A stretch of DNA of 21,558 nucleotides, taken from the IMG/VR virus record IMGVR_UViG_3300042691_017815, positions 1 to 21,558 of that record; one strand, 5' to 3'. The notes under the pieces are model-generated. The model was given only the letters and a program-made list of their open reading frames with translations, did not search any database and had not been told where the DNA came from. Shown in pieces: positions 835 through 17,102 of this stretch. Numbering within the stretch: position 1 is the stretch's first letter; every line of letters begins with the position of its first letter. The DNA is from a virus. Made by a program: the position numbers and the translations under genes.

Positions 835-1206
835 ATGCCTCGCGGCTCCAAGGCTCGCGGCTCCAAGCCCGGCGAACGCCGCGGCGGTCGGAAGCCCGGC
901 ACCCCGAACAAGGCGAAGCCCGCCGATAAGAAGACCCTCGAGGAGCTCGCCCGCGAGTACACCCCGAGGGCGCTCGGAACCCTCGCCGAGATCGCCTTCT
1001 CGAAAACCGCGACCGACGCCGCCCGCGTCTCTGCGGCCTCCGCCCTGCTCGATCGCGGCTACGGCAAGCCCAAGCAGGCCACCGAAGTCTCCGGGGCCAA
1101 CGGCGGCCCCATCCAGTCCGAAGATCTCTCCAACGCCAACCCGGTCGACATCGCGCGCCGCCTGGCGTGGATCTTCGCCGCGGCGCAGAAAGCCAAGTCC
1201 GCATGA
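835..1206 (+). CDS. Small basic protein, candidate terminase small subunit
   Basis: A 123-residue protein with a very basic N-terminus (MPRGSKARGSKPGERRGGRK, then PGTPNK) followed by a helical region from about residue 33 and a segment LLDRGYGKPKQATEVSG near residue 70. The RGGRKPGTPNK and DRGYGKP...EVSG signatures are ones I associate with small DNA-binding proteins near phage terminase genes. A small terminase subunit that recognises the packaging site is therefore possible but not shown. The first codons carry a near-perfect 15-base tandem duplication that encodes RGSKA/RGSKP. It follows a 61-base gap after the methyltransferase, where I see no convincing promoter, and its stop overlaps the ATG of the first tailspike (ATGA, 1203-1206). 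The large terminase lies about 10.6 kb away, an unusual separation if this is its partner. Confidence 0.72.
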   Translation: MPRGSKARGSKPGERRGGRKPGTPNKAKPADKKTLEELAREYTPRALGTLAEIAFSKTATDAARVSAASALLDRGYGKPKQATEVSGANGGPIQSEDLSNANPVDIARRLAWIFAAAQKAKSA

Positions 1207-2414
1207 GCCAAGTCGGGGCGATCCTCACCAGCCTGCACGGCAACGAAGCCGGGCTGGACAAGGACGGCCGCCTCGTCGTCCCCGCCGGCATCCAGGGCGT
1301 CGGCGTCATGCCGAGCTTCCTCTACGGCGACGGCTCGACCGACGACACCAGCGCCCTCCAGCGGGCGATCGACAAGGCCGAGGCCATGTCGCCCATGGGC
1401 ACCGTCGTCCTGCCCGAGGGGACCTTCGCCCACACCGGCCTGACTGTGAGCGCCGGCATCCGCATCATCGGCGCGTCCGACCTGCGCACCAGGCTCTACC
1501 TCAAGAGCGGCTCCAACACCTCGAGCCTCACCTACACCGGCGAGAAGACCGGCGCCGGCTACGAGCTCAAGCAGCCCCGGCTGGAGAACCTGCTGATCGA
1601 CGGCAACAAGGCGGGCCAGTCGGGCACCTCGCACGGCGTCTACCTGCCGGCGATCAGCTACAGCGTCGGCACCGACTACGCGTTCGGCGTCGGCATGTTC
1701 CAGGTGAACATCATCAACTGCGAGACGAACGGGATCAACATCGGCAACAACCGCAACGCTGGCGGGTTCGTCCGCGGCAGCGTGCGCGACAGCGGCGGCA
1801 CCGGCATCGTCATCGGCAGCGCCTCCGACTGGCACTTCTACCATTTCGGCTGCGGCGGCAACGGCGGCCACGGCATCTACAACGTCGGCGGCCAGATCAT
1901 CCGCATCTACGACTGCGACATCTACTCGAACACCCTCGCCGGCATCCGCATGGACTCGACGGCCAATTCCATGCAGGTCGCGATGGGCTCCATCGACCGC
2001 AACGGCCAGCAGGGCGTCCTGCTCAACGGCGCAGGCACGACGGTCCCGGGCCTGGTCACGATCCTCGGCACGCAATTCTATGAAAATTCGGCCGAGACGA
2101 CGAACACCTTCGCCGACATCACGCTGTTCGACTTCGTCGGCGGCTGCGCCATCGGCACGACGCACAAGCGCTCGACCACCAACTCGCCGAAGTACCTGGT
2201 CAACTCGACCGGCACCTCGAGCGGCTTTGGCTTCATCAGCCCGCTCTATGACCTCGGCTCGCCCCCCTGGGGCACGGCGATGACCAACGACGTCACCAAG
2301 CTGCGCGAGGGCCTCCAGACGACAGGCTGGACGACCGGCGGCGACGCCGCGGTCAACGGCTACGTGACCGTGACCATCAACGGCACCGCATACAAGATGG
2401 CGACCATCGCATGA
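1203..2414 (+). CDS. Tagged tailspike 1, pectin-lyase-like beta-helix protein
   Basis: A 403-residue predicted tailspike. It starts with the shared tag GAILTSLHGNEAGLDKDGRL (residues 5-24), then DGSTDDTSALQRAID, the typical entry to a right-handed parallel beta-helix of the pectate-lyase-3 kind. Landmarks shared with the next two genes are DGNKAGQS (from residue 133), GSIDRN (from 262), SPKYLVNSTGT (near 329) and TNDVTKL. The last residues (GYVTVTINGTAYKMATIA) resemble the C-terminus of tailspike 2. Proteins of this fold usually form trimers that bind and cleave capsule, O-antigen or exopolysaccharide; the substrate cannot be read from sequence. The start is ATG 1203, overlapping the previous stop; an in-frame upstream start at 1167 would spoil the tag alignment. 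It is translationally coupled to the next gene through ATGA at 2411-2414. Confidence 0.88.
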   Translation: MSQVGAILTSLHGNEAGLDKDGRLVVPAGIQGVGVMPSFLYGDGSTDDTSALQRAIDKAEAMSPMGTVVLPEGTFAHTGLTVSAGIRIIGASDLRTRLYLKSGSNTSSLTYTGEKTGAGYELKQPRLENLLIDGNKAGQSGTSHGVYLPAISYSVGTDYAFGVGMFQVNIINCETNGINIGNNRNAGGFVRGSVRDSGGTGIVIGSASDWHFYHFGCGGNGGHGIYNVGGQIIRIYDCDIYSNTLAGIRMDSTANSMQVAMGSIDRNGQQGVLLNGAGTTVPGLVTILGTQFYENSAETTNTFADITLFDFVGGCAIGTTHKRSTTNSPKYLVNSTGTSSGFGFISPLYDLGSPPWGTAMTNDVTKLREGLQTTGWTTGGDAAVNGYVTVTINGTAYKMATIA

Positions 2415-3991
2415 CAGAGATCGTCACCTCCATCCATGGCAATGAGATCGGCCTGGACGCGCAGCGCCGCCTTGTCGTGCGCGCCGGCATCGCCGGGCTG
2501 GCCACGCCGGTCAACGTCGTCGCCGATGGCGTCACCGACAACTACACGGCCCTGCAAGGCGAGATTAACCGGCTTGAGGCGGCCGGCGGCGGCACGCTCG
2601 ACCTGCCCGCCGGCGTCATCGTCTCCAGCCCGCTGACCGTCACCGGGCCGATCCGCATCCGCGGGCAGGGCCGCGACATCACCACCCTCAAGCTCGCCGA
2701 TGGCAGCAACGCCGACTTCCTGACCATCGCCGCGGTGGATCAGTCCGACCCGCTGTGGATCGAGTTCTGCGACTTCAAGCTCGACGGCAACAAGGCGAAC
2801 CAGTCCGCCGGGTCGTGCATCTACCTGCCCACGCTGGGCACCGGCTACGGGCAGGCCATGCACTGCCGCTCCATGACCATCATGGGGGCGAAGGAGCACG
2901 GCGTCGAGGTGCAGACCAACCGCAACGCCGGCGCGCTGCGCAACTGTTACATCCACTCCAACACGCTCGATGGCTTCTACGTCTCGACCTCGGGCGACTT
3001 CCGCGCCGAGTCCTGCTCGTTCGCCAACAACGGGCGCTACGGCGTCAACCTGATCGCCAGCTATGCGATGTTCTTCGACAAGTGTTACGCCTACTCGAAC
3101 ATCAACGTCGGCGTGAATATCCAGGTCGACGCGCAGGAAGTGTTCTGGATCGGCGGCTCGGTCGACCGTAACCGCAACCACGGCATCTCGATCGTGGCGG
3201 CCAACGACGCCGCCGGCGTGCGCGGCTTCAAGATCATCGGCACCACCTTCTACGAGAACTCGAACTTCGACCCGGGCGTCTACTCCAACATCAAGGTGAA
3301 CAACGCGCCGGCCGGCGTCTCGGTCATCGGGTGTCACTTCCTGCGCAGCGGCGGCGATAACCCGAAATACGTGATCGAGACGGCCGGCACCGCGGCCAAC
3401 GTGGCGTGGATCGCCAACACCTATGAGGGCGTCACCGCCGGCGCCGAGCCTTGGCTGACGGACTTCTCCAACGACGACTCCAAGCTGATCGTGGCGGCCG
3501 ACTCCTACCTCGACACGCGCTCGCCGAAGAACATCATCCTGCGCAGCGCCAACCCGGCCGTCGAGCTCTACGAGACGGACGCCTCCTCCAACCGCAAGCG
3601 CTGGCGCATGGACGCGGAGAGCGACCAGCTCCGCGGCCGGCTGTTGTCCGATGATGGCGTCAGCTCCTCGCGGTGGCTGACCGTCACCCGCACCAACCAC
3701 ACCGTCAACAGCGTCTACCTCGGCGGCTCCAACACGGCCGACGCCGGGCTGGAGGTCATCTCGACGCCCAGCGGCGTCAACAAGGTCAACGCGACAGGCT
3801 CGACCACGGGCAACGCGGTCACGGTGGGCGCTGGCGGCTCCGACGCCGACATCGACCTGGCGCTGAGCCCCAAGGGCGCCGGCAACCTCAAGTTCGGCAC
3901 CTACACGGCCGGGGCCGCGGCTGACTCGACAGGCTACATCACCGTGAAGGACGCGGCCGGCAACGTCCGCAAGCTCATGGTTCAGGCATGA
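2411..3991 (+). CDS. Tagged tailspike 2, beta-helix protein with C-terminal extension
   Basis: A 526-residue paralogue of the preceding tailspike. It begins MTEIVTSIHGNEIGLDAQRR, continues with VADGVTDNYTALQGEIN (beta-helix entry) and carries DGNKANQS, GGSVDRN, FYENS, NPKYVIETAGT and SNDDSKL, matching tailspikes 1 and 3 in order. After the helix it has an extra C-terminal part of about 160 residues. This contains NPAVELYETDASSNRKRW and MDAESDQLRGRLL, then an ATGSTTGNAVTVGAGGSD segment and LALSPKGAGNLKFGTYT, ending GYITVKDAAGNVRKLMVQA. I recognise this as a C-terminal module found on many phage tail and fibre proteins, probably for trimerisation or receptor contact; that role is inferred. ATGA overlaps join it to both neighbours. 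It is the longest of the three tandem copies. Confidence 0.9.
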   Translation: MTEIVTSIHGNEIGLDAQRRLVVRAGIAGLATPVNVVADGVTDNYTALQGEINRLEAAGGGTLDLPAGVIVSSPLTVTGPIRIRGQGRDITTLKLADGSNADFLTIAAVDQSDPLWIEFCDFKLDGNKANQSAGSCIYLPTLGTGYGQAMHCRSMTIMGAKEHGVEVQTNRNAGALRNCYIHSNTLDGFYVSTSGDFRAESCSFANNGRYGVNLIASYAMFFDKCYAYSNINVGVNIQVDAQEVFWIGGSVDRNRNHGISIVAANDAAGVRGFKIIGTTFYENSNFDPGVYSNIKVNNAPAGVSVIGCHFLRSGGDNPKYVIETAGTAANVAWIANTYEGVTAGAEPWLTDFSNDDSKLIVAADSYLDTRSPKNIILRSANPAVELYETDASSNRKRWRMDAESDQLRGRLLSDDGVSSSRWLTVTRTNHTVNSVYLGGSNTADAGLEVISTPSGVNKVNATGSTTGNAVTVGAGGSDADIDLALSPKGAGNLKFGTYTAGAAADSTGYITVKDAAGNVRKLMVQA

Positions 3992-5160
3992 CGGAGATCC
4001 TCACCAGCATCCACGGCAACGAGATCGGCCTCGACGCCGTCGGCCGGCTCCTCGTGCGCTCCGGCGTCGAGGGCCTCGGCGTCAACGCCACCCGCTACGG
4101 CATGCGCGGCAACCGCGATCCGCTGAGCGCCGCCGAGAACAGCGCCGCCTTCATGCGCGCCTATGAGGCGGCCAAGGCCGACAAGGGTCTGATCGTCATC
4201 CCCAACGGCTGGTACTACATGGCCCCGATGGACCTGACCGGGGCCGACCAGGGCGTCACCATCATCGGCGAGTCGTGGAACGACAACATCGGCGAGTCGC
4301 CCGAGGTCGGCGGAGCGGTGCTGGAGCTCGCCAGCAACTCCAACGACAGCCTGTTCACGGTCGCGGCCGACTGCGCGCCGATCCACTTCAAGAACCTCTT
4401 CCTGCGCGGCAATCAGGCGGGCCAGACGACGGGCACCAGCCACGCGGTGGAGTTCTCCGACGCCGGCTCGCCGAGCCGCAGCGGCACGTTCGAGCGGGTC
4501 CGCATGGAGCGCTGGCGCTCCGGCGCGGTGGCGATCGGCACCTACCGCGACGCTGGCAAGATGGATCTGTGCGTCATTCTGACGTGCGGCTATCAGTCGA
4601 ACGGCACGCCGGTCGTGACGCGCGGCGACGGCATCCTGGCCGGGTCCTGCAACGACTGGCGCTTCACCCGCGTGGACTGCGGCGCCAACGGCCGGCACGG
4701 CTTCTACTCGACCGGCGCTGGCACGGTGCTGATGGGGCAGTGCAACTGGTTCTCGAACCTCGGCAGCGGGATCAAGCTCGACGCGCTGACCGGGCAGTTC
4801 GACTACAGTTGCGGCAGCATCGACCGCAACGAGCTTGAGGGCGTGGTCCTAGTCGGCTCGGCGAGTTCCACCCGCATGTACGGGCGCACGTTCTCGCAGA
4901 TGCTGTTTTCCGGCAACTGCAACGCCGCCAATGACACATACGCCGACATCCGGATCGCGGACGACGCGCTCGGCACCACGGCGCTGATCGCCCCGACGTT
5001 CTCGCGCGGCCAGTTCACGAACTACCCGAAATACAACATCCAGACGACGGGCACGACGACGGGGGTGCATGTCCTCGCCTCGCGCTATCGCACCGACGCG
5101 GCGGCCAGCTACGTCACCGCCTACACCAACGACGTCAGCAAGCTGATCGTCTACTCCTGA
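3988..5160 (+). CDS. Tagged tailspike 3, beta-helix protein
   Basis: A 390-residue third paralogue. The N-terminal tag is MTEILTSIHGNEIGLDAVGR. The helix entry is less canonical than in the two upstream copies (NRDPLSAAENSAAFMRAYEA), followed by GLIVIPNGWYYMAPMDLTGA. Shared landmarks are RGNQAGQTTGTSH, GSIDRN, YPKYNIQTTGT and TNDVSKL, and the protein ends shortly after (LIVYS), without the C-terminal extension of tailspike 2. A surface-polysaccharide binding or cleaving role is inferred from the fold. Its ATG overlaps the previous stop (ATGA, 3988-3991). Its own TGA (5158-5160) is followed at once by a strong ribosome binding site for the next gene. Middle sections differ strongly from the other copies while the landmarks are kept, as expected for receptor-binding proteins under diversifying selection. 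Confidence 0.88.
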   Translation: MTEILTSIHGNEIGLDAVGRLLVRSGVEGLGVNATRYGMRGNRDPLSAAENSAAFMRAYEAAKADKGLIVIPNGWYYMAPMDLTGADQGVTIIGESWNDNIGESPEVGGAVLELASNSNDSLFTVAADCAPIHFKNLFLRGNQAGQTTGTSHAVEFSDAGSPSRSGTFERVRMERWRSGAVAIGTYRDAGKMDLCVILTCGYQSNGTPVVTRGDGILAGSCNDWRFTRVDCGANGRHGFYSTGAGTVLMGQCNWFSNLGSGIKLDALTGQFDYSCGSIDRNELEGVVLVGSASSTRMYGRTFSQMLFSGNCNAANDTYADIRIADDALGTTALIAPTFSRGQFTNYPKYNIQTTGTTTGVHVLASRYRTDAAASYVTAYTNDVSKLIVYS

Positions 5161-5170
5161 AGGAGCGGCC

Positions 5171-5479
5171 ATGCCGAGCGATACCGAAAACATCCTGCTC
5201 AACAACGCCGCGGCGACGGGCACCTCGGTGCGCTGGACGGGCGGGCGCGGCGTGTTCGTGGTCCCCTCCGCGACCTGGAACGGCGCGACGGTGGCGCTGC
5301 ACTGGAGCATCGACAACTCGACCTTCCTGCCGGTCGACCGCAGCGGCGACACCTACGTGACGCTGACGGCGAACGGCGCGGGCATTTTCGAGCTGCCGCC
5401 CTGCCACCTCAAGGCCGTCGTCACCGGCGGCCCGCCGAGCGCCGTCTACGCCTACATCAAGGGCACGCGGGTCGACTGA
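5171..5479 (+). CDS. Small conserved phage protein, function unknown
   Basis: A 102-residue, beta-rich protein starting MPSDTENILLNNAAATGTSV, with WTGGRGVFVVPSATWNGATV near the middle and Gly/Pro-rich turns toward the end. I recognise the style as a small protein that sits among tail genes in phages, but I cannot assign a function. Start choice is firm: GAAGGAG at 5159-5165 lies five bases before ATG 5171. The stop overlaps the next start (TGATG, 5477-5481). It is probably a minor virion or assembly protein, by position only. Confidence 0.82.
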   Translation: MPSDTENILLNNAAATGTSVRWTGGRGVFVVPSATWNGATVALHWSIDNSTFLPVDRSGDTYVTLTANGAGIFELPPCHLKAVVTGGPPSAVYAYIKGTRVD

Positions 5480-6279
5480 TGGGCCGTCCGACCGAAGCCC
5501 TCTCCCGCGGCCTGTCGCGCCCCGTGGCGGGCGGCGGCGTGTTCGTGACGCCGCAGGCGCTGGCCGTCGTCAACGCCTTCACCACGCCGCCCACAGAGGC
5601 CCGGCGCAACCTCGTCATCGACACTGTCAACAAGCTGGCGACCTCGACGATCTGGGCCAAGCTCGACGTGTTCTACATGCTGGCCGCCGCCGACGCGCAG
5701 GCCGCGCGGGTGAACTGGAAGCAGCCAGGCACCTATGACGCGTCGGTCGTGGGCTCGCCCGTCTTCGGCGTCGACACCGGCTACAATAGCGCGAGCAACA
5801 TCGCCAACTACCTGAACACGAATTTCAACCCGTCCTCGTCCACCCGCGTGCAGTCGCAGGACAGCGCCCACATGGGCGTCTGGTCGCGGACGGCCGGGTC
5901 GAACGGCAACGGCGCGGTCGGCAACACCAACGCCACGGTCCTGCCGTTCTCGGTGAACGTCATGAACGTGCGGCTTAACGGAGCGTCAGGCCTGACGGCC
6001 ACCAACGACACCGGCGTCGGCCACTACGTCGGAAGCCGCACGAGCTCTGTCGGCCTGCGTATCTACAAGAACGGCGCGCTGACCAACACGTCCGGGTCGA
6101 ACACCTCGTCCGCGCCGGCGAACGAGAACTATTACGTCTGCGTGCGCAACCAGGCCACGGACTCGACGGGGTCTAACGAGTTCGCGTGCTTCCACTGCGG
6201 CTCGTCCTTGCAGATCGCCGAAGTCGCCACCCTCTACAACATCATCCGTCCCTACCTCGTCGCAGTCGGAGCAGCATAG
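5479..6279 (+). CDS. Probable tail-associated protein with lectin-like beta sandwich
   Basis: A 266-residue protein. An N-terminal helical part (about residues 25-70, with KLDVFYMLAAADAQAARVNW) is followed by a beta-rich domain with YLNTNFNPSSSTRVQSQDSA, a VGLRIYKNGALTNTSGSN hairpin-like segment and a C-terminal helix (EVATLYNIIRPYLVAVG). The pattern resembles concanavalin/LamG-like sandwich proteins found near phage tail fibres; this is recognition by style, not a motif proof. It has no signal peptide and no tag of the neighbouring tailspikes. Its ATG overlaps the previous stop. Its TAG (6277-6279) is part of the AGGAG that serves the next gene. It might contribute to glycan binding. Confidence 0.8.
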   Translation: MGRPTEALSRGLSRPVAGGGVFVTPQALAVVNAFTTPPTEARRNLVIDTVNKLATSTIWAKLDVFYMLAAADAQAARVNWKQPGTYDASVVGSPVFGVDTGYNSASNIANYLNTNFNPSSSTRVQSQDSAHMGVWSRTAGSNGNGAVGNTNATVLPFSVNVMNVRLNGASGLTATNDTGVGHYVGSRTSSVGLRIYKNGALTNTSGSNTSSAPANENYYVCVRNQATDSTGSNEFACFHCGSSLQIAEVATLYNIIRPYLVAVGAA

Positions 6280-6289
6280 GAGCCTAACC

Positions 6290-6733
6290 ATGAGCGCCAT
6301 TTCCAACGCCACTGAGGACGCCATCCTCAAGCTCGTCTTCAACGCCACCACCTGGGCCAACTACGCGGTCGACGCGACGGCCTCGCCCGAGGCGAACATC
6401 GTCGTCACGTTGGCCACGGCCGACCCTGGCGACACCGGCACCGGCTCGACCAACGAGATCTCCTACACCAACTACGCCCGCGTCAACGTGGCGCGCACCT
6501 CGGGCGGCTGGACGGTGTCGGGCACCACCCCCACCAAGGCCGCGCCGGTCGCTACGATCTCGTTCCCCGCCGGCGGCGTGGGCTCGTCCCCCACCGCAAC
6601 GCACTTCGCCACTACGAAGTCGGGCGGCGGCGCGTCGGCCAACCTCTGGTACGGCACGGTCAGCCCGAACATCGTGTGCGGCAACGGCATCACGCCGCAG
6701 CTCACGACGTCGACCGCGATCGAGCTGGCCTAA
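6290..6733 (+). CDS. Conserved phage protein of a tail-fibre-associated family, role unknown
   Basis: A 147-residue protein beginning MSAISNATEDAILKLVFNAT, with VVTLATADPGDTGTGSTNEI, SYTNYARVNV and a Gly/Ser-rich second half ending LTTSTAIELA. The layout (an N-terminal helix ending in a W-containing segment, then a short beta strand followed by ATADPGDTGTG, then YARV) matches a widespread family of small phage proteins often annotated as tail-fibre-related. No enzymatic motif is visible. AGGAG at 6278-6282 precedes ATG 6290 by seven bases, which supports the start. The stop TAA directly abuts the GTG start of the next gene. Confidence 0.83.
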   Translation: MSAISNATEDAILKLVFNATTWANYAVDATASPEANIVVTLATADPGDTGTGSTNEISYTNYARVNVARTSGGWTVSGTTPTKAAPVATISFPAGGVGSSPTATHFATTKSGGGASANLWYGTVSPNIVCGNGITPQLTTSTAIELA

Positions 6734-7219
6734 GTGCACGCAGCCGAGTTCAAGCGCTGCGTGGAGGAGCTCGACGTCGAGGGCATCCGCAGGCTCGCGG
6801 CGCATGTGCTGCCGCACCTGCCGGCCCCCAACACCGACGCCGAGGCGCTCACCGCGCTGCACATCGCCAGGACGCAGGCCGAGTGGCTGCACCTGCGGCA
6901 CCGGGCCTACTCGCACCGCTGGTTGGAGGAGCGCGGCTTGCCGTCGCACCTGCCTGACCACCTCAAGCCCTCGGCTGAGCAAATCTGCCCGGTCGTGCGC
7001 TCCGGCGTCGGCATCAGCATCAACTTCCGCGACCCGCTGCTGCGCCCGGCCGGCGAGCTCATCCGCACCGCCATGAGCGATGTGGTCGAGAATTGCTTCG
7101 CCGACGGCAAGCAGGAGCCTGCCTACGTGACGCCGCGCATGAACGAGGCCGGCCGCCTCGAGCGCAAGCGGCTGTTCGGCATGTGGGAGAAGGTCTACGC
7201 GATGGCGGCGAAGAAGTAG
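6734..7219 (+). CDS. Conserved hypothetical protein, helical
   Basis: A 161-residue, mostly helical protein with GTG start immediately after the previous TAA (6731-6733). Visible features are ALHIARTQAEWLHLRHRAYS, an Arg/His-rich helix, then HRWLEERGLPSHLPDHLKPS, GVGISIN, and a basic C-terminal helix (RLERKRLFGMWEKVYAMAAK). There are no transmembrane segments or catalytic motifs. I recognise the general pattern from tail-region genes of similar phages but not a function. No good Shine-Dalgarno precedes the start, so translation probably depends on coupling to the upstream gene. Confidence 0.78.
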   Translation: MHAAEFKRCVEELDVEGIRRLAAHVLPHLPAPNTDAEALTALHIARTQAEWLHLRHRAYSHRWLEERGLPSHLPDHLKPSAEQICPVVRSGVGISINFRDPLLRPAGELIRTAMSDVVENCFADGKQEPAYVTPRMNEAGRLERKRLFGMWEKVYAMAAKK

Positions 7220-7229
7220 GGGACGGCCA

Positions 7230-7517
7230 ATGAGCGACGTCGGCGGCTACGATCCCCCGATCATCGGTTGGCGCGTGGTCTTCGCCGACGGCACAGAGTA
7301 CGCCTCCTCCGAGGGCCACAACTGGGATCGCGACGTGCCCACGTCCGGCATCCAGTTCCTTGTGGTCTACAAGGAGAGGGGCTACCGCGACATCGAGTGC
7401 GGCCTCGACGAATACAGCTGGCCCGGAGCCCGGCGTAAGAAGCTGGGCACCTGGATGGACGATAGCGCGTTTTACACCCTTTATGACAAGGTCTTCCGCG
7501 ACACCCGGAGGGCCTGA
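7230..7517 (+). CDS. Small hypothetical protein
   Basis: A 95-residue protein starting MSDVGGYDPPIIGWRVVFAD, acidic and aromatic-rich in the middle (YRDIECGLDEYSWPGARRKK) and ending KVFRDTRRA. No known domain is recognised. The start ATG 7230 follows GGGGA at 7219-7223 with normal spacing. The stop overlaps the start of the repeat-protein gene (TGATG, 7515-7519), so the two are probably translated together; this suggests, without proof, that it helps that protein fold or assemble. Confidence 0.78.
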   Translation: MSDVGGYDPPIIGWRVVFADGTEYASSEGHNWDRDVPTSGIQFLVVYKERGYRDIECGLDEYSWPGARRKKLGTWMDDSAFYTLYDKVFRDTRRA

Positions 7518-10075
7518 TGCCCGTCATTTACATAGCGTCGAACGACGACTCGACGGACGACTTTACCGATTACACGCTAGAGTTTAAGAAACAGCTTGAG
7601 GTTACCGGCGCAAGCACGGGCACGCTGAGCTTCTCAGTCGCGCCGGGCACCTACGAATACTTCGCTTTCATCGCGCCCTATGAAATAGGTCTTGTAGACA
7701 CCAACCCGTCAGGCACTTGGTCGGTCGAGCTCAACATCACGACCGGCAACTCCGTCAGCATGCGGTGGGCGGCGCAGGTCGGCAAGCTCAACGACAACGG
7801 CGAGTTCGTCGGCGCGACGGCGTGGTCGCCGACGGACGCGAGCGCCGGATCCGGCGTCAAGACGACGTCGTGGACGAGCACGGCGCTGGGGACCTGGAAC
7901 GACGGCGAACAGTTCTGCGTCCTGTTCCGGTTCTATCACTCCGGGACGATGAACAACATTTCCATGGCGGTGGGCGTTGGCACCACCGACATGGAGCAAA
8001 AGCCTCCATACGACGTCCCGAAAAACGCAAACGGTACGGCGCAGGGCGCTGGCGCGGCGTCTGGAACAGGACTGGCGCTGTTCAACGCCGCCGGCACGGC
8101 GCAAGGCGTTGGAGCGGCGTCCGCCGTCGGCGCCTACGAGATGGGCGGGACCACCGCCGACGGACTGGCGCAGGGCGTCGGCTCAGCCACCGCCACCGGC
8201 GCGTCGACCGCCGACGCCGCAGGAACGGCGCAGGGCGTAGGCGCCGCGACCGCATCCGGCGCGAGCACCGCGGCTGGAGACGGATCCGCCCAAGGCGTAG
8301 GCGCTGCAACGGCCACGGGTCTGGCGCTGTTCGCCGGCGACGGGTCCGCGCAAGGCGTCGGAGCGGCCAGCGCCACCGGCAAGGCGCTGGTCAGCGCGGA
8401 CGGCAGCGCGCAGGGCGTAGGCTCTGCGACGGCGACTGGCGCTTCTACCGCCGCCGCGGATGGGTCCGCGCAAGGCGTCGGAGCGGCCACAGCGGCAGGG
8501 ACCAGCACGGCGGCCTCGGACGGCTCTGCGCAAGGCGTTGGCGCTGCGACGGCCAGTGGCGCGTCCACGGCGGCGGCAGATGGCTCCGCACAGGGCGTCG
8601 GTTCGGCTACGGCGGTCGGCGAGGCGGTCGCCGTCGCTGAAGGCGCGGGCAGCGCGCAGGGCGTTGGTTCGGCCTCCGCGACGGGCGCATCCACGGCGGA
8701 CGCCGACGGCTCTGCGCAAGGCGTCGGCTCGGCCTCGGCGGACGGGGCCAGCACCGGCAACATGGACGGCTCGGCCCTCGGGGTCGGCTCGGCCAGCGCA
8801 ACAGGAACATCGACGGCCGACGCGGATGGCTCGGCGCAGGGCGTCGGCGCAGCCACGGCGACAGCGACATCGACGGCCGACGCCGCAGGCTCTGCGCAAG
8901 GCGTCGGGTCGGCCACGGCCGAGGGCTCGTCCGTCACCGCCGCTGATGGCGTCGGCTCGGCGCAAGGCGTCGGCAGCGCCACGGCGACCGGGCAATCCAC
9001 GGCCAACGCGGACGGCTCGGCTCTCGGCGTCGGCAGCGCGACCGGAGCCGGGGCCAGCACCGCGGCCTCAGACGGCGCAGCGCAAGGCGCAGGGGCCGCC
9101 ACCGGAGACGGGGCGTCCAATGCGGCTGCGGATGGCTCCGCCCAGGGCGTGGGCTCCGCCTCCGGCGTTGGAGCATCGGCGTCCACGGGACAGGGCGTCG
9201 GCAACGCGCTCGGCATTGGCGACGCGTCCGCGGTCGGCCAGTCGACGGCGGCCTCTGATGGGTCGGCCCAAGGGGCTGGCGCAGCGATTGGCGCAGGAGC
9301 CTCGACCGCCGTCGCCGATGGCACGGCCCAAGGGGTCGGCTCGGCGTCCGCCACCGGGGCGAGCACGGCGACCGCCGACGGCGCGGCCCAAGGCGTCGGC
9401 TCCGCATCGGCTGTTGGGGCCAGCGCAGCGACGGCGGACGGGTCCGCACAGGGTGTCGGATCGGCGACTGGCGTCGGCGCGGCCAACGTGGCGGCGGACG
9501 GGTCCGCGCAGGGTGTCGGATCGGCCACTGGCGCTGGCGCATCCGCGGCGAGCGGCGAAGGCGTCGGCGACGCTCTTGGCGTCGGTTCGGCCTCGGCCGC
9601 CGGCGCTTCCACAGCGACCGCGGACGGCGCAGCCCAGGGCGCAGGAACGGCTTCCGGCGCAGGCCTGGCGCTGTTCGACGCCGCTGGCTCTGCACAGGGC
9701 GCAGGCGCGGCGACAGGCGCAGGGCAGGCCCTCTTCAACGGGGTGGGCTCCGCGCAAGGCGTCGGCTCCGCGGCTGCGGTCGGAACGTCCGTCGCGACAG
9801 GCGACGCCGTCGGAACGGCGCAGGGCGTCGGGTCCGTTTCTGCGGTCGGCGAGTCCACCGCGGAGAGCGCCGGCACGGCGCGCGGGGTCGGCACGGCCTC
9901 GGCCTTCAGCATCGCGGTGACCGCGGACGGGGCCGGATCGGCGCAAGGCGTCAGCCTCGCGATCGGCGTCGGCGCAAGCATCTTCCGCCCGCTGCGCGCG
10001 CGCGGGCATCGCAACGCAGGGCCGTGGAAGCGGAGGGAACAGGGCCGGCCCTCGCGGCCCTCGAGGATGCAATGA
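7517..10075 (+). CDS. 852-residue protein with 32 Gly/Ala-rich 20-residue repeats, probable fibre
   Basis: Residues 1-172 form a probable beta-sandwich domain (MPVIYIASNDDSTDDFTDYT at the start; FRFYHSGTMNNISMAVGVGT near its end). Residues 173-826 are 32 tandem repeats, mostly 20 residues, with consensus GSAQGVGSATATGASTAAAD. Residues 827-852 are a basic tail (RARGHRNAGPWKRREQGR and on) with nine Arg/Lys and one Glu. In the consensus every odd position is Gly, Ala or Ser, as in silk-like or tightly stacked beta structures. There is no signal peptide or membrane segment. The start overlaps the previous stop and the end overlaps the ATG of the next gene (ATGA, 10072-10075), so it is an in-operon structural gene. 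A long fibre, spacer or decoration role is inferred. The first roughly 100 bases are less GC-rich than the repeats. I know Gly/Ala repeats of this kind in phage tail-region proteins but no established function. Confidence 0.87.
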   Translation: MPVIYIASNDDSTDDFTDYTLEFKKQLEVTGASTGTLSFSVAPGTYEYFAFIAPYEIGLVDTNPSGTWSVELNITTGNSVSMRWAAQVGKLNDNGEFVGATAWSPTDASAGSGVKTTSWTSTALGTWNDGEQFCVLFRFYHSGTMNNISMAVGVGTTDMEQKPPYDVPKNANGTAQGAGAASGTGLALFNAAGTAQGVGAASAVGAYEMGGTTADGLAQGVGSATATGASTADAAGTAQGVGAATASGASTAAGDGSAQGVGAATATGLALFAGDGSAQGVGAASATGKALVSADGSAQGVGSATATGASTAAADGSAQGVGAATAAGTSTAASDGSAQGVGAATASGASTAAADGSAQGVGSATAVGEAVAVAEGAGSAQGVGSASATGASTADADGSAQGVGSASADGASTGNMDGSALGVGSASATGTSTADADGSAQGVGAATATATSTADAAGSAQGVGSATAEGSSVTAADGVGSAQGVGSATATGQSTANADGSALGVGSATGAGASTAASDGAAQGAGAATGDGASNAAADGSAQGVGSASGVGASASTGQGVGNALGIGDASAVGQSTAASDGSAQGAGAAIGAGASTAVADGTAQGVGSASATGASTATADGAAQGVGSASAVGASAATADGSAQGVGSATGVGAANVAADGSAQGVGSATGAGASAASGEGVGDALGVGSASAAGASTATADGAAQGAGTASGAGLALFDAAGSAQGAGAATGAGQALFNGVGSAQGVGSAAAVGTSVATGDAVGTAQGVGSVSAVGESTAESAGTARGVGTASAFSIAVTADGAGSAQGVSLAIGVGASIFRPLRARGHRNAGPWKRREQGRPSRPSRMQ
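8033..9994 (+). repeat. 32-copy in-frame repeat array, 60-bp unit
   Basis: Counting each G[STA]A[QLR]G unit gives 32 copies covering residues 173-826 of the 852-residue protein. Twenty-five are 20 residues, five are 22, one (the second) is 23 and one (the thirty-first) is 21, which sums to the 654 residues observed. Codons vary freely between copies (for example AQGVG is written gcgcagggcgtcggc, gcccaaggcgtaggc or gcgcaaggcgttgga). The DNA copies are therefore diverged while the protein pattern is kept, which argues for selection on the protein rather than recent slippage. Confidence 0.95.
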
Positions 10076-10890
10076 AAAACATTCTGACATCCATCGAAGG
10101 GCGACGCCTCGGCATCGACTCCGACGGCAACCTCTTGTTCGACGGCGCCCCGATCGCCGGGCCTGACGCCGCAGGCGCGTCTGCGTTCTCCAACGTCGTC
10201 ACGCTGACGAACGGCGATTTCACCGATGGCCAATATTTGGTGACCGCCCAGCAGTCGGGGACGCTCTTCATCGTCAACGCCGGAGACATCTACCCCTACC
10301 AGATGGAGTTGCCAGAGGACGCGCCGGTCGGCTGGTTCGCGCGCTTTGTGGCGACCAAGTACGTGCCGCCGTACCAGACCGACGCGACGCAAACGCGCAT
10401 GAAAACGCTCGACATCCACACGGATGAGCCGGGCTACCAGGTCGACCTCGCCTTCCGCGGGATCAGCAAGGTCAACACGCACTGCGACGTCCACTGCGTC
10501 GAGAACACAGACGGCGGCTCGGCGGCCTATGTCCATGCCGGCCCGCATCTCTGGGGCAACCTGCCGGCGATCGCGCCCGCCACGACCTACACGATCAGCA
10601 TCGACAACGCTGGCGCGGCCCGCACGGTCGGCACGCGGTACATCTTCGACCAGTACAACTCCATGACGATCGCTGACTGGGGCGGCTACGCGCCCCACAG
10701 CATCTCGTGGGCTTGGTATCGCGGCAACGGCGTCTACGACGAACTGATCCCGCAGACCGAGTTCGACGCGACCTACATCCTGCGCGATTTCGACATCGGC
10801 TACACGATCTACGCCGGCGTCACCGGAGAAAACAGGTACGGGTCCAAGACCTACCTGTCGAACGCCACTGGGACCGTTATCGCAGCATAA
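10072..10890 (+). CDS. Tagged beta-rich protein of unknown function (272 aa)
   Basis: A 272-residue protein that opens with the tag MKNILTSIEGRRLGIDSDGN and then is unrelated to the tailspikes. The body is beta-rich, with VVTLTNGDFTDGQYLVTAQQ, YPYQMELPEDAPVGWFARFV and YIFDQYNSMTIADWGGYAPH as landmarks, and a C-terminus LSNATGTVIAA. No catalytic motif, membrane segment or signal peptide is seen. I start it at ATG 10072, which overlaps the stop of the repeat protein and places the tag at the very N-terminus; an in-frame GTG at 10024 would add 16 residues inside the upstream coding frame. The tag suggests it is mounted on the same partner as the tailspikes (inference). Confidence 0.85.
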   Translation: MKNILTSIEGRRLGIDSDGNLLFDGAPIAGPDAAGASAFSNVVTLTNGDFTDGQYLVTAQQSGTLFIVNAGDIYPYQMELPEDAPVGWFARFVATKYVPPYQTDATQTRMKTLDIHTDEPGYQVDLAFRGISKVNTHCDVHCVENTDGGSAAYVHAGPHLWGNLPAIAPATTYTISIDNAGAARTVGTRYIFDQYNSMTIADWGGYAPHSISWAWYRGNGVYDELIPQTEFDATYILRDFDIGYTIYAGVTGENRYGSKTYLSNATGTVIAA

Positions 10891-10906
10891 CCAACACGAG
10901 GCTATC

Positions 10907-11215
10907 ATGTCTGACTTCGCCACCGTCGTTTCCGCGCTCGAGCTCGTCGTGGGCAACACCCGCGCCGTCGAGATCCTCAAGGCCGTCGAGACGGACAACT
11001 CCGCGCTCATCGCCGACAACCTCGCGCTGACCAACAAGTGCACGGCGCTGGAGGCGGCGCTGGCCAAGTCGCAGGCCGACGCCATGAACCTCGTCACCGC
11101 CATCCAGGCGGTGCGCGCCGACGCCGCCGACGGCGTGCTCGACAACCCCATCCCCGACCCCGTGGTCGTGGACCCCGTGGTCGACCCGACCCCGGCTCCC
11201 GCGCCTTCGATCTAA
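10907..11215 (+). CDS. Small coiled-coil protein with Pro/Val/Asp-rich tail
   Basis: A 102-residue protein. Residues 1-75 are helical with a likely coiled coil (ETDNSALIADNLALTNKCTA and LEAALAKSQADAMNLVTAIQ). The C-terminus is an extended DNPIPDPVVVDPVVDPTPAP stretch, probably disordered. GAGG at 10898-10901 precedes ATG 10907. No enzymatic motif is present. It sits between two tag-bearing proteins and may be an assembly factor or linker; that is a guess from position and composition. Confidence 0.8.
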   Translation: MSDFATVVSALELVVGNTRAVEILKAVETDNSALIADNLALTNKCTALEAALAKSQADAMNLVTAIQAVRADAADGVLDNPIPDPVVVDPVVDPTPAPAPSI

Positions 11216-11258
11216 TCGAGCGCCCCGCAGCAACAGCACCACATAAAGGGGAACCCCG

Positions 11259-11846
11259 ATGGCCAACCAGATCCTGACCTCCATCCACGGCAAGCGCTTC
11301 GGCCTCGGCCCGCGCGGCGAGCTCCTCCTCGACAAGGGGGTCGGCACGTTGTCGGTTCCCACCGTCGCCTATACCAACACGGCGGCCGGCACGGCGCTGA
11401 CCGCGTCCTCGACCGAGACGGCGCTGGGCTCCTACTCCATCCCGGCCAACTCGCTGTTCCCCGGCGCGCTGATCCAGGTCCGCTTCCAGGGCATCGCGAC
11501 GGCGACCAACGGCTCCGACACGCTGACCGTGAAGCTCTACATCGGCGGCCTGACCGGCACGGCCCTGATCGCCATGGCGGCGCAGGACGTGGCCAACAAC
11601 GACGTGTTCACCGGCGAGTACGAGCTGATCGTCCGCACCGTCGGCGCGTCGGGCACGATCGTCGGCGTGGGCACCTACAAGTCCATCCCGGCGGCCGAGG
11701 GCACCATGACCATCAAGGACGACTATCTGGCGTCCACCGCCATCGACACGACGGCGGCGCAGGTCGTCGCGGTGTCGGGGGCGTGGTCCTCGACCAACGC
11801 CGGCAACTCCTGCCGCCTCGACTTCCTGCGGGTCATCATCGGCTAA
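11259..11846 (+). CDS. Tagged beta-sandwich protein (195 aa), function unknown
   Basis: A 195-residue protein beginning MANQILTSIHGKRFGLGPRG, the fifth copy of the shared tag. It then has a beta-rich body of about 160 residues: YSIPANSLFPGALIQVRFQG, DTLTVKLYIGGLTGTALIAM, a strand pair near FTGEYELIVRTVGASGTIVG, and a C-terminal NSCRLDFLRVIIG. The body looks like a single jelly-roll or sandwich domain of the type used as head-fibre tips, decoration proteins or baseplate adaptors. AAAGGGGA at 11245-11252 before ATG 11259 supports the start. Its stop overlaps the start of the large terminase (TAATG, 11844-11848). Confidence 0.87.
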   Translation: MANQILTSIHGKRFGLGPRGELLLDKGVGTLSVPTVAYTNTAAGTALTASSTETALGSYSIPANSLFPGALIQVRFQGIATATNGSDTLTVKLYIGGLTGTALIAMAAQDVANNDVFTGEYELIVRTVGASGTIVGVGTYKSIPAAEGTMTIKDDYLASTAIDTTAAQVVAVSGAWSSTNAGNSCRLDFLRVIIG

Positions 11847-13411
11847 TGTCCGCGGAAATCCTCAAGGCCCTGCTCGACGAGTTCACAAGGCTCGACGAGC
11901 CGGGCCGGCAGGAGCTGGCGAAGGTCGCCCTCGGCGCGACCAAGGGAATGACCTGGGTGCCCAACCCGGGCCCGCAGGCCATGGCGGCTATGTCCGAGGC
12001 GGACGAGCTGTTCTATGGTGGCCAGGCCGGCGGCGGGAAGACGGATCTCGCCATCGGCCTGGCGCTTACGCAGCACAAGCGCAGCCTACTCCTGCGCCGC
12101 ATCAACCGCGACGCCGTAAAGCTGGTTCCGCGCATCGAGGAGATCGTCGGCTCGCGCAGCGGCTGGAACGGCCAGGACAGGGTCTGGCGCTTTCCCGACG
12201 GCAAGCAGATCGACATCGCCGGGTGCGAGCTCGAGGGCGACAAGCAGCGCTTCAAGGGCGACCCGCACGACCTCATCGTGTTCGACGAGGGCACCGACTT
12301 TCTGGAGAGCCAGTTCCGCTTCATCATCGGCTGGAACCGCTCCGCCGACGCCAACCAGCGCTGCCGCGTGCTGGTCACGTCCAACCCGCCGACCACCGCC
12401 GACGGCCTCTGGGTCATCAAATACTGGGCCCCGTGGCTCGACGACACCCACCCCAACCCGGCCAAGCCGGGCGAGCTGCGCTGGTACACCACCATTGGCG
12501 GGCAGGACGTCGAGGTCGACGGCCCGGGCCCGCACGTCATCCCCGACGAGCCCGAGCCTGTCATGGCGCGCTCGCGGACCTTCATCCCGGCGAAACTGTC
12601 GGACAACTACGACCTGGCGCGCACGGGCTACGCCAGCGTGCTGGCCGCGCTGCCGCCCGAGCTGCGCGCCGCCTACCGCGACGGGCGCTTCGACGCCGGC
12701 CTGCGTGACGCCGACTTCCAGGTCATCCCGACCGCATGGATCAGGGCGGCGCAGGATCGCTGGAGCCCCAAGCCCCCGCCGGGCGCGGCCATGGTGGCCA
12801 TGGGCTTCGACCCCGCCGGCGGCGGCCAGGACGCCGCGGTGCTCGCGAGGCGCTACGGCGGCTGGTACGACGAGATGATCGCCAAGACGGGCGAGGAGAC
12901 CGCCGACGGCTCGTCCATGGCGGCGCTGGTCATGCGCTATCGCCGGGACCAAGCCCCGGTCGTGGTCGACGTCGGAGGCGGATATGCAGGAGCCGTCATC
13001 CAGCGGCTCAAAGACAACGGACTCGGACACAGCCCCTTCAACGGAGCCAACGCCAGCACCGGGACCGACAAGTCCGGCCAGCTCAAATTCGCCAACAAGC
13101 GAGCCGAGGCGTGGTGGCGCTTTCGTGAGGCGCTTGACCCTGATCAGGATGGCGGGTCCTGCATCGCTCTGCCGCCGGACCCCGAGCTTAGAGCGGATCT
13201 TGCCGCGCCGACGTGGTCGCTGACCCCGCGCGGCGTGCAACTGGAAAGCAAGGACGACATCCGCAAGCGGCTCGGCCGATCGCCCGGGCGCGGCGACGCC
13301 GTCGTCATGGCCCTTTCCGAGGGCGACAGGGCGCGCACGCGGGCGTTCTTCCAGCAGACCGGCAGGCTCCCGACCGTGAAACTCGGCTACGCCAATTTGA
13401 AGAGGCACTGA
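11846..13411 (+). CDS. terL: Terminase large subunit
   Basis: The ATP-driven DNA packaging motor and headful or site-specific nuclease, 521 residues. The ATPase part has Walker A GGQAGGGKT at residues 58-66 and Walker B LIVFDEG at 143-149, followed by VLVTSNPPTT as the coupling region. The RNase H-like nuclease part has candidate metal-binding aspartates in GFDPAGGG (D322), VVVDVGGG (D375) and GRGDAVVMAL (D484). Length is normal for the family. I choose ATG 11846, overlapping the preceding stop; an in-frame start at 11783 would add 21 residues inside the upstream gene with no family resemblance. During assembly it acts at the portal vertex, and the portal gene follows after one small gene. 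Confidence 0.97.
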   Translation: MSAEILKALLDEFTRLDEPGRQELAKVALGATKGMTWVPNPGPQAMAAMSEADELFYGGQAGGGKTDLAIGLALTQHKRSLLLRRINRDAVKLVPRIEEIVGSRSGWNGQDRVWRFPDGKQIDIAGCELEGDKQRFKGDPHDLIVFDEGTDFLESQFRFIIGWNRSADANQRCRVLVTSNPPTTADGLWVIKYWAPWLDDTHPNPAKPGELRWYTTIGGQDVEVDGPGPHVIPDEPEPVMARSRTFIPAKLSDNYDLARTGYASVLAALPPELRAAYRDGRFDAGLRDADFQVIPTAWIRAAQDRWSPKPPPGAAMVAMGFDPAGGGQDAAVLARRYGGWYDEMIAKTGEETADGSSMAALVMRYRRDQAPVVVDVGGGYAGAVIQRLKDNGLGHSPFNGANASTGTDKSGQLKFANKRAEAWWRFREALDPDQDGGSCIALPPDPELRADLAAPTWSLTPRGVQLESKDDIRKRLGRSPGRGDAVVMALSEGDRARTRAFFQQTGRLPTVKLGYANLKRH

Positions 13412-13640: not shown

Positions 13641-15293
13641 ATGAAAGAGCGCTGCCGGCAGATCATCGGGATAGGCAATCGCCTGTTCTCCGACCGCATG
13701 CCGCTCATGTCGTTGTGGCAGGAGCTCGCCGACAACTTCTACCCGGAGCGGGCTGACTTCACGACGACGCGCTCGATCGGCACCGATTTCGCGTCGCACC
13801 TGTTCACCGGCGCGCCCCTGCTCGCCCGGCGCGAGCTGGCCAATTCGCTCAGCGCCATGCTGCGCCCGCGCGGCCAGCAGTGGTTCTCGGCCCGCACCCT
13901 CGACGAGGCGGTCAACGAGGACTCCGGCAACAGACAGTGGCTCGACATGGTCAGCGAGCGCATGCGCCTGCTGATGTACGACTCGCGCGCCCAGTTCCAG
14001 CGCGCGACGAAGGAGGCCGACAACGACTTCGCCACCTTCGGCCAGTGCGTCATCACCGCAGACCTCGACCTGACCATCAACGCCATCCTCTATCGCTGCT
14101 GGCACCTGCGCGACGTCGCCTGGTCCGAGAACGAGAGGCTCGAGGTCGACACCATCCACCACAAGTGGAAAATGTCGGCCCGCGACATGGTGCGCCGCTA
14201 CGGCGACAAGGTCGACGGGCGCGTCCGCGACCTGCTCAAGGACGAGCCGCACAAGAAGATCGAGTGCCGGCGCGTCGTCATGCCGGCCGACGAATACGAC
14301 CTGAAGCGGGTTGGGGCCGATCGCGCCAAGCCCTACGTTGCGCTGCACATCGACTGCGAGAACGACACCGTTCTGGAAGAGAAGTACGTCAAGCGCATCA
14401 ACTACGTGCTGCCGCGCTGGCAGACGGTGAGCGGCTCCCAGTACGCCCACAGCCCGGCCTCGGTCATCGCCCTGCCCGACGCCCGCCTGCTCCAGCAGAT
14501 CACGCTGACCCTGCTTGAGGCCGGGCAGAAGAGCGTCGATCCGCCGCTCGTCGCCACGCATGAGGCGATCCAAGGCGGCGTCAACTTGTACGCCGGCGGC
14601 GTGACGTGGGTCGACAAGGACTACGACGAGCGCCTCGGCGACGCGCTGCGCCCGCTCGACATCGACCGCTCCGGGTTGAACTGGGGCGTCGACCGCGAGG
14701 AGCGCATCACGTCGCTCATCAAGCAGGCGTTCTACCTCGACGAGCTCCGCCTGCCCGACGTCGCCGGCTCCGACCAGATGACGGCGCAAGAGGTCCGCAT
14801 CCGCACGGAAGAGTTCATGCGCCGGGCGCTGCCGCTCTTCGAACCCATGGAGACGGAATACAACGGCGCGTTGTGCAATCTCACGTTCGAGATCGCCATG
14901 GAGCAGCACGCCTTCGGCAACCCGTTCGACATGCCGCAGGCGCTACGCGGCGCCGAGGTGCGGTTTCAGTTCGAGTCACCGATCCAGCAGGCCGCCAACC
15001 GGGCCAACGCGCAAGCCTTCCAGACGAGCGCCAACCTGCTCGCCCTGGCCGCTCAGGTCGACCCGACGGTCATCCACGTGTTCGACACCGACAAGGCGGT
15101 TCGCGACGCTCTGGAGGGCGCTGGAGCCCCGGCGGACTGGATCAAGGCCCCCGAGGTGGTCGAGCAGGAGAAGGCCATGGCGGCCGAGCAGGCCATGGCC
15201 ATGCAGGCCGCACAGGAGGTGGCCGTCGGCGCGGACATCGCGTCGAAGGTCGGCGAGGCGAGCCAGCAGCTCCAGGCCGGAGGCGTCATCTGA
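13641..15293 (+). CDS. Portal (head-tail connector) protein, T7 gp8 family
   Basis: A 550-residue portal protein that forms the ring through which DNA enters and leaves the head. The protein starts MKERCRQIIGIGNRLFSDRM and carries family-typical segments: WQELADNFYPERADFT (about residues 26-41), ANSLSAMLRPRGQQWFSAR, DFATFGQCVITADLDLTINA (about residues 130-150), then IHHKWKMSARDMVRRYGD and QMTAQEVRIRTEEFMRRALP. The C-terminus is Ala/Gln/Glu-rich and helical, as expected for the crown or barrel. Length agrees with the roughly 530-residue T7 connector. It follows the terminase and precedes the scaffold, the T7 order. Its TGA overlaps the ATG of the small membrane protein (TGATG, 15291-15295). 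Confidence 0.96.
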   Translation: MKERCRQIIGIGNRLFSDRMPLMSLWQELADNFYPERADFTTTRSIGTDFASHLFTGAPLLARRELANSLSAMLRPRGQQWFSARTLDEAVNEDSGNRQWLDMVSERMRLLMYDSRAQFQRATKEADNDFATFGQCVITADLDLTINAILYRCWHLRDVAWSENERLEVDTIHHKWKMSARDMVRRYGDKVDGRVRDLLKDEPHKKIECRRVVMPADEYDLKRVGADRAKPYVALHIDCENDTVLEEKYVKRINYVLPRWQTVSGSQYAHSPASVIALPDARLLQQITLTLLEAGQKSVDPPLVATHEAIQGGVNLYAGGVTWVDKDYDERLGDALRPLDIDRSGLNWGVDREERITSLIKQAFYLDELRLPDVAGSDQMTAQEVRIRTEEFMRRALPLFEPMETEYNGALCNLTFEIAMEQHAFGNPFDMPQALRGAEVRFQFESPIQQAANRANAQAFQTSANLLALAAQVDPTVIHVFDTDKAVRDALEGAGAPADWIKAPEVVEQEKAMAAEQAMAMQAAQEVAVGADIASKVGEASQQLQAGGVI

Positions 15294-15826: not shown

Positions 15827-16117
15827 ATGGCCCTCGATAAGCGCCAGTCCCCGCTCTTCGTCCGCTACGAGGACGCCGACGTCTACGCCATCAAGGCGCT
15901 CGCCGCTGGCAAGGCCAACGAAGGCCAACAGCAGCGCGCCATAGCTTGGATCGTCAACGTGTTGTGCGACGCCAACGCCCTGTCATTTCGCCCGGACTCC
16001 CCGCGCGAAACTGATTTCGCGGAGGGCAAGCGCCACGTGGCGATCCAAATCCGCAAGCTGGTGGAATTGCCAGTGAGCGTCCTCGTGAAGCCCCCTAAGA
16101 GGTCAACGAATGAGTGA
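15827..16117 (+). CDS. Small conserved protein between portal and scaffold
   Basis: A 96-residue helical protein starting MALDKRQSPLFVRYEDADVY, with ALAAGKANEGQQQRAIAWIV and LSFRPDSPRETDFAEGKRHV, a pattern I recognise from small genes next to portal or scaffold genes in comparable podoviruses. No function is established. CCGAGAG at 15816-15822 lies five bases before ATG 15827. Its last eight bases overlap the scaffold gene. The basic end (KPPKRSTNE) and lack of membrane segments suggest a soluble assembly-related protein (inference). Confidence 0.82.
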   Translation: MALDKRQSPLFVRYEDADVYAIKALAAGKANEGQQQRAIAWIVNVLCDANALSFRPDSPRETDFAEGKRHVAIQIRKLVELPVSVLVKPPKRSTNE

Positions 16118-17102
16118 AGCCATCGCCGCGGCCACGCCGCCGGCAGAAGCCCCCGCGCCGACCCCCGCACCCGCCCCCGAGGCGGGTGTTGTCGTTTCTG
16201 GGGGCCAGACCACCGCCCCTGCCGCCGCGCCCGCTGGCGAGGCTCCTGCGCCCGCTCCCGTGGGCACCATCGCAGAGGGAGCAACCACAGACCTGCCCGC
16301 CGCCCATCCCGCCGACTGGCCGGAGGACTGGCGGGCCAAGCTCGCCGGCGAGGACAAGGCCTACCTGAAGACGCTGGAGCGGTTCAACTCGCCCGCCGAT
16401 CTGGCGAAGTCCTACCGCGAGCTGCGGGCCCTCCAGGCCTCCGGCAAGCTCAAGGCCGCCGCGCCGGAGAACGCCACGCCCGAGCAGCTCGCGGCATGGC
16501 GCGCCGACAACGGCATCCCTGAGAAGCCGGAAGAGTACAAGGCCACCCTGCCCAACGGCGTCGTGTTGGGAGAAGCCGATCAGCCCCTCGTGCAGTCCTT
16601 CCAGGCGACGGCGCACGAGCTCAACATGACCGGCGGGCAGTTCTCCAAGGTCATGTCCTGGTACTTTCAGGAGGCGGCGCGCATCGACACCGAGCGCGCC
16701 CAGCAGGACATGCAGTTCAAGTCGATGGCCGAGGACACGCTCCGCTCGGAGTGGGGCCAGAGCTACCGGCAGAACGTCACCGCGGTGGAGAACTTCGCCG
16801 CCGGCATGCCCGGCGACCTGCGCAACCAGTTGTTCGGCGGACGCCTCGCCGACGGCACGCGCATCGGCGACCACCCCGACTTCATCAAGTGGATGGCCCT
16901 CTCGGCCAACCAGTTGAACCCCTATTCCAGCCTCGTCCCGTCGGGATCCGCCGACCCTGTCAAGCAGGGCAAGGCCCGCCTCGACGAGATCCGGAATATG
17001 CAGCGCGAGAACCCTCACAAGTATTGGTCGGACAAGGCCCTCCAGGAGGAGGAGCTGAAGCTGATCGAGGCTGAAGAGCGGATGAAAACCCGCGCTGCGT
17101 AA
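16110..17102 (+). CDS. Scaffolding (capsid assembly) protein
   Basis: A 330-residue protein with the composition of a phage scaffold. A disordered Ala/Pro-rich N-terminus occupies residues 1-60. A tryptophan-containing motif HPADWPEDWRAKLAGEDKAY follows, then LERFNSPADLAKSYRELRAL, and a long charged helical remainder ending LQEEELKLIEAEERMKTRAA. These WPEDW...LERF...DLAKSYREL signatures match the capsid assembly proteins of podoviruses. The position directly before the major capsid gene supports the call. It would guide coat assembly into procapsids and then leave. Start ATG 16110 overlaps the previous gene by eight bases. Confidence 0.92.
   Translation: MSEAIAAATPPAEAPAPTPAPAPEAGVVVSGGQTTAPAAAPAGEAPAPAPVGTIAEGATTDLPAAHPADWPEDWRAKLAGEDKAYLKTLERFNSPADLAKSYRELRALQASGKLKAAAPENATPEQLAAWRADNGIPEKPEEYKATLPNGVVLGEADQPLVQSFQATAHELNMTGGQFSKVMSWYFQEAARIDTERAQQDMQFKSMAEDTLRSEWGQSYRQNVTAVENFAAGMPGDLRNQLFGGRLADGTRIGDHPDFIKWMALSANQLNPYSSLVPSGSADPVKQGKARLDEIRNMQRENPHKYWSDKALQEEELKLIEAEERMKTRAA

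Follow-up and report, generated by a model that had tools for sequence, protein, structure and literature searches.

In phage P22, beta-helix tailspikes are attached through an N-terminal head-binding domain, which is folded and comprises about 110 amino acids. Fibres of podoviruses with T7-like tails have an N-terminal attachment module as well (the T7 gp17-type anchor, PF03906), and the capsid-targeting sequence of phage T4, a short peptide at the N-terminus of T4 proteins that are otherwise unrelated, directs proteins to the head interior and is cleaved. Short conserved N-terminal peptides have also been described by Latka and colleagues, with 7 or 11 residues in phages K1E, K1-5 and SP6 and with the sequence MALxxLV in KP34 phages (PMC6872550); the phages concerned also include Klebsiella phages KP32, KP34, Menlow and phiK64-1 (PMC6872550). 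These peptides differ per phage group and are thought to dock second receptor-binding proteins on a T4gp10-like adaptor (PMC6872550).

The DNA analysed here (the window) comprises an entire viral contig (21,558 bases), which reads from its predicted genes as a podovirus with T7-like organisation. Five of its ORFs begin with one peptide of about 20 residues, and we propose, from sequence comparisons and structure models and with a probability of about 0.7, that this peptide is a lineage-wide docking tag that fixes interchangeable, often glycan-active appendages to the virion. The tag, ILTS[LI]HGRxxGLDxxGxLV, is common to a whole lineage of uncultured podoviruses of T7-type organisation and would fold, probably into a short beta hairpin, on binding one conserved site of the virion; any body fused behind it would be displayed, and bodies would be exchanged in a cargo slot beside the large-terminase gene (terL). 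Several bodies are of glycan-cleaving or glycan-binding types, so the appendages on display probably serve in receptor binding or in the handling of exopolysaccharide; most phages would have a single kind, and the virus of the window as many as five.

Five tagged genes upstream of terL

The predicted features of the window are as follows.

63-770: DNA methyltransferase
835-1206, + strand: small-terminase-like ORF, upstream bound of the cargo block (phrog_2538, terminase small subunit, E 1.8e-4)
1203-11846: cargo block, between the small-terminase-like ORF and terL
1203-2414, + strand: tagged tailspike 1, 403 amino acids; tag ILTSLHGNEAGLDKDGRLVV at about 1221-1280; beta-helix body (PF12708); ATGA overlap with the preceding ORF
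2411-3991, + strand: tagged tailspike 2, 526 amino acids; tag at about 2420-2479; beta-helix body (PF13229)
3988-5160, + strand: tagged tailspike 3, 390 amino acids; tag at about 3997-4056; body homologous to those of tailspikes 1 and 2
10072-10890, + strand: tagged 272-residue protein; tag at about 10081-10140; singleton body of unknown fold
11259-11846, + strand: tagged 195-residue protein; tag at about 11271-11330, modelled as disordered; jelly-roll body; stop overlaps the start of terL
11846-13411, + strand: large terminase (terL), directly 3' of the last tagged gene
13641-15293, + strand: portal (PF12236, head-tail connector); candidate docking platform
16110-17102: scaffold
17293-18132, + strand: major capsid protein (MCP; PF19821); candidate docking platform
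18197-18469, + strand: p95, small protein whose gene adjoins the capsid gene (phrog_18004); candidate docking platform
18581-19096, + strand: p171 (phrog_26742)
19162-19836, + strand: tail tubular protein A-like (tube A; phrog_394); candidate docking platform
3' end of the window: open ORF of 574 amino acids, cut by the contig end

The tag stands at the N-terminus of the ORFs beginning at 1203 (MSQVGAILTSLHGNEAGLDKDGRLVV), 2411 (MTEIVTSIHGNEIGLDAQRRLVV), 3988 (MTEILTSIHGNEIGLDAVGRLLV), 10072 (MKNILTSIEGRRLGIDSDGNLLF) and 11259 (MANQILTSIHGKRFGLGPRGELLL), and a search of the window's own record with one tag returned exactly these five places and none besides. An out-of-sample HMM, which drew on 47 tags from other contigs and excluded the window together with its four closest relatives, matched exactly the same five ORFs (32-42 bits, i-E 6e-13 to 5e-10), compared with 2.8 bits for the next ORF of the window and 15.9 bits for the best of 23,000 shuffled window ORFs. 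Both the reading of the ORFs and the HMM bear out an earlier note on this DNA, made from the letters alone, that five genes begin with the same short module; its placement of all five between the candidate small terminase and the large terminase agrees with the block given above. The note had also called the five proteins otherwise different. This holds for the 272- and 195-residue proteins, whose bodies showed no similarity by BLAST to the tailspikes or to one another, as the note had said; the three tailspike bodies are related to one another (27-30% identity over about 330 amino acids), so the five proteins represent three body types. A role of the 195-residue protein as an adaptor, which the note had considered, was not supported: the model of its family resembles the C-terminal domain of phage depolymerases (e.g. 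KP34) and of tailspike phi15, i.e. a carbohydrate-binding jelly roll, and judged by this model the protein looks like another appendage. The C-terminal domain of KP34gp57 has been described as a carbohydrate-binding module (PMC10653864). In a Pfam search of the five window proteins, no N-terminal domain such as that of the P22 tailspike was found, and the tag is modelled as disordered.

Four of the five tagged genes start with an ATGA overlap with the preceding gene, and the ATG of terL overlaps the stop of the fifth (the 195-residue protein), as expected of one operon. The ORF at 835-1206 has a better match than phrog_2538, namely phrog_15261 (function unknown).

Further ORFs lie within the block. 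An 852-residue protein (7517-10075), possibly a fibrous stalk, is largely built from some 28 degenerate repeats of 20 residues (DGSAQGVGSATATGASTAA type) with a 60-nt period at the DNA level, and gave no match in Pfam and PHROG searches. An ORF of 147 amino acids (6290-6733) resembles PF23140, the fibre I protein gp80 of podophage GP4 (E 9e-8), and also matches phrog_240 (head protein), and an ORF of 266 amino acids (5479-6279) resembles the C-terminal region of long phage proteins with no known function (phrog_26223, E 2e-21; phrog_18498). The core of the window is mosaic: TerL (11846-13411) has its nearest relatives among BPP-1-like and Acidovorax/Caulobacter phages (42-45% identity), and portal and MCP have theirs among pelagiphages (27-28% identity).

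Spread across a lineage of uncultured podoviruses

Two scans of IMG/VR for the tag itself yielded 18 and 24 confirmed loci, and an iterated profile over these contigs yielded 50 tagged ORFs, all with the tag at the N-terminus and with a gap in E-value from 2.5e-6 to 0.66. In each of 76 non-redundant tagged proteins, the tag begins 1-10 residues after the start (within the first 11). The 34 tag-bearing contigs first tabulated, which were found by the tag alone, all have terL and portal genes of one kind and, as far as each contig extends, also those of scaffold, MCP, p95, p171 and tube A. Compared with the window, their MCPs are 49-75% identical, their portals 39-54% and their TerL proteins 40-69%. 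Judging from these proteins, every tagged contig is a member of one uncultured podovirus lineage with a common virion core.

This first set was picked by the tag, and the unbiased rate derives only from a portal-selected set, for which the best 80 of 581 confirmed relatives from a portal-based, tag-blind scan were taken. Of these best 80 of 581, 51 relatives have 1.5 kb or more of sequence upstream of terL, and the tag was recognised in 31 of the 51 (61%); among 32 tagged ORFs, 19 stop no more than 50 nt from terL. About 40% of the portal relatives have no recognisable tag, and the tag is thus not essential to the lineage. At least five of 20 "untagged" portal relatives carry a degenerate tag (L091, MSGTNYTNFNGRRAGQDN; L140, MTKQNTVSIHGRML; L142, MKQILTSLYDTNTIGLAH; L150, MPYVSLHGRATGFD; L102, MSTEVFHPLVDRRIGLTQKGNL), which in L142 sits on a body resembling the lectin family.

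In the regions read, the tag is absent from relatives whose core is similar (pelagiphages Hodr and HTVC010P, and podovirus ct8d5349) and from phages with a similar TerL (BPP-1, Acidovorax AP1, Limnohabitans DC33, Caulobacter RapA, Acinetobacter 4316 and ct4oC223), and tblastn of a 32-residue tag against annotated phages found nothing. One cultured genome has the tag, that of Chelativorans xinjiangense (L025), on a 173-residue protein inside a phage module (prophage); the other 397 genomes from the same order have none, so the tag is not a common bacterial motif.

Genes of nonulosonic (sialic-like) acid type were observed upstream of the tagged gene in three contigs (L043, 589-6964; L037, 5619-6470; L038, 6004-7041), comprising by Pfam NeuB, a cytidylyltransferase, a DegT aminotransferase and a HisF-like protein; L031 has genes that look similar to this set, by appearance alone.

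The tag peptide and the bodies behind it

An alignment of 66 tags gave the consensus I-L-T-S-[LI]-H-G-[RK]-[RE]-[LIV]-G-L-[DSGT]-x-x-G-x-L-V, in which G7 and G11 are invariant. The tag is absent from the Pfam, PHROGs and NCBIfam models and the PDB chains searched, and its strings occur in none of the papers searched. Weak PDB matches of the tag profile, to short GrL fragments of Photorhabdus lectins, were set aside as not meaningful.

The shared 5' end might be a remnant of recombination or expression in one gene slot, in which the bodies were swapped and the peptide is functionless. Such a history would fit the single slot beside terL and the 65-78% DNA identity across the tag in the window's tandem tagged genes, but the codons differ at 66% of identical tag residues (34% have the same codon, in tags on different bodies and different contigs) and serines in the window's tags are encoded by both AGC and TCC, which argues that selection acts on the peptide; the invariance of G7 and G11 requires such selection as well. 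A mere remnant is hardly credible to us, and homology at the DNA level was rejected, on codon usage, as the cause of the shared tag.

In AlphaFold models of two unrelated body families (monomers, from ten-sequence alignments), the bodies are well folded (pLDDT up to 90+) and the tag is left disordered (pLDDT 33-50) although it is well conserved in the input alignments; two short low-confidence strands were predicted in the tag, at 5-7 and 11-15. These strands make a hairpin possible, the tag occurs only on virion-type proteins, and a registration element is needed by many fibre proteins; the tag might therefore nucleate the folding or trimerisation of differing fibre proteins, as a capping hairpin, and not serve as a docking site. 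We regard this as improbable: the bodies are predicted to fold without the tag, trimerisation motifs would not usually be restricted to a lineage, and a shared external partner accounts better for one peptide on unrelated bodies within a single virion lineage.

The 76 tagged proteins fall into 17 body clusters (BLAST behind the tag), or 15 after lenient profile-profile merging. Several of the bodies, not all, are of receptor-binding or depolymerase type, i.e. beta-helix tailspikes (PF12708, PF13229), an SGNH/lipase-type esterase (L010; phrog_6102, E 7e-39), ConA-like lectin/glucanase bodies, and the depolymerase jelly roll; for one ConA-like body (L012), the top PDB matches of the model are glucanases, legume and bacterial lectins, and carrageenases. 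Many others are small beta-rich orphans, and the small bodies (126-175 amino acids) are mostly without assigned function, so the glycan theme does not cover all cargo yet.

These bodies also bear on the possibility that the tag is a transient assembly signal, for a chaperone or for scaffold or prohead targeting, like the capsid-targeting sequence of T4. N-terminal peptides route unrelated proteins into proheads in T4, and the cargo adjoins the terminase and portal genes, but bodies of tailspike, lectin and esterase type have their function outside the virion and no prohead protease was recognised in the cargo block; a transient signal of this kind appears very improbable.

Two further genes of the cargo region were noted. 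A second LamG/ConA-type protein of L012 (10513-11847; PF13385, E 4e-11) lies in the block before terL and has no tag, hence not all proteins of the cargo block carry one. The gene after the tagged esterase of L010 (5740-6273) starts MPDILQSIDNRLLGRDANNNFV, possibly a diverged tag missed by the profile.

For a docking peptide, one would expect a conserved sequence on unrelated bodies that is unstructured alone and confined to one virion lineage, as appears to be the case here from the alignments and models. The profile search that the earlier note had suggested returned the tag on many unrelated bodies and often several times per genome (three tags each in G001-G004 and G029, five in the window; the contigs are mostly fragments and these counts are lower bounds). 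Confinement of the motif to a larger domain of one family, which the note had named as evidence against its idea, was not found: the tag is not part of a larger domain by the profile search, with the 17 body clusters behind it.

The presumed docking partner and known systems

No gene within about 10 kb cleanly separates tagged from untagged relatives. The core genes occur in both alike, so profiling does not name the socket. The note's picture of a docking peptide for interchangeable spikes is supported in part: the unrelated bodies, the disorder of the tag in two AlphaFold models and its conservation at the protein level are consistent with it, and a single partner is not singled out by the core genes. 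Two candidates for a tag-specific partner, p171 and p95, were promising at first but are also present in untagged relatives; p171 was found in all tagged contigs that reach its region. Against PDB, p171 has no relatives and p95 has one chance-level match only. A p95-like N-terminus is also present on an 893-residue ORF of L057 (4355-7036, - strand), and a p95 paralogue lies between the tagged gene and terL in L013 (2405-2671).

The T7-type fibre anchor (PF03906) was above cut-off in none of 12 lineage contigs, and the T4gp10-like adaptor (PF07880) was below cut-off in all 12; these contigs may be fragments, and docking domains 2-3 of gp10 lie outside the PF07880 model. At least one near-complete relative, G017, carries apparently ordinary tail-fibre genes downstream (25214-28698), hence the tagged proteins are probably additional appendages.

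A narrower form of the docking reading, whose probability is contained in that of the main one, places the tag on the head, with the tagged proteins as capsid fibres or decorations on MCP or p95. In Rhizobium phage RHph_Y25, the gene of an untagged relative of the L025/L019-type body immediately follows that of the major head protein; the p95 paralogue of L013 lies beside a tagged gene, MCP is better conserved in the lineage than any other core protein, and the L157-family body has a weak Pfam match to the phi29-type head fibre (PF11133, E 0.008). This match is below cut-off, however, and tails are the more usual place for beta-helix spikes and esterases; we consider docking on the head rather unlikely. 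For the docking tag as such, our guess at the socket slightly favours the tail hub (portal, tube A or nozzle) over the capsid (MCP or p95). The most far-reaching form of the proposal is put forward tentatively and with some doubt: a single plug-and-socket peptide in a family-sized lineage of environmental podoviruses, with one conserved virion site (perhaps on the capsid) that displays exchangeable lectins, esterases, lyases and decorations, up to five kinds per genome.

If the docking reading is right, the tag offers a sequence handle on appendages in a large group of uncultured viruses, whose cargo is otherwise made up of unrecognisable orphans; any ORF that starts with the tag would be a candidate displayed protein, and the tag would represent a natural genetic display tag. 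It raises the testable question of which virion protein is the socket.

With regard to known systems, the T7 gp17-type anchor is a folded domain of about 150 amino acids, unlike the tag, and the window proteins also have no match to it. The cargo of the T4 capsid-targeting sequence goes inside the head, whereas the bodies behind the present tag look external. Like the tag, the peptides of K1-5, SP6, KP32 and KP34 are short and conserved, stand at the extreme N-terminus of differing bodies and occur several times per genome, and they too have been proposed as attachments for interchangeable parts. The K1-5/KP34 peptides have 7-11 residues, occur on depolymerases and dock to a T4gp10-like adaptor, whereas the present tag has about 20 residues, occurs on at least 15 body families including non-enzymes, and belongs to a lineage with no gp10-like adaptor above cut-off (12 contigs). 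The K1-5/SP6/KP34 peptides differ per group, whereas the tag spans a lineage with terL identity down to 40%; by inspection, the KP34 heptapeptide MALxxLV and the tag consensus are unrelated in sequence. By analogy, the tag would work like the peptides of K1-5, SP6 and the Klebsiella phages, and is at most a putative member of their class; it is longer, has a broader cargo and is far more widespread.
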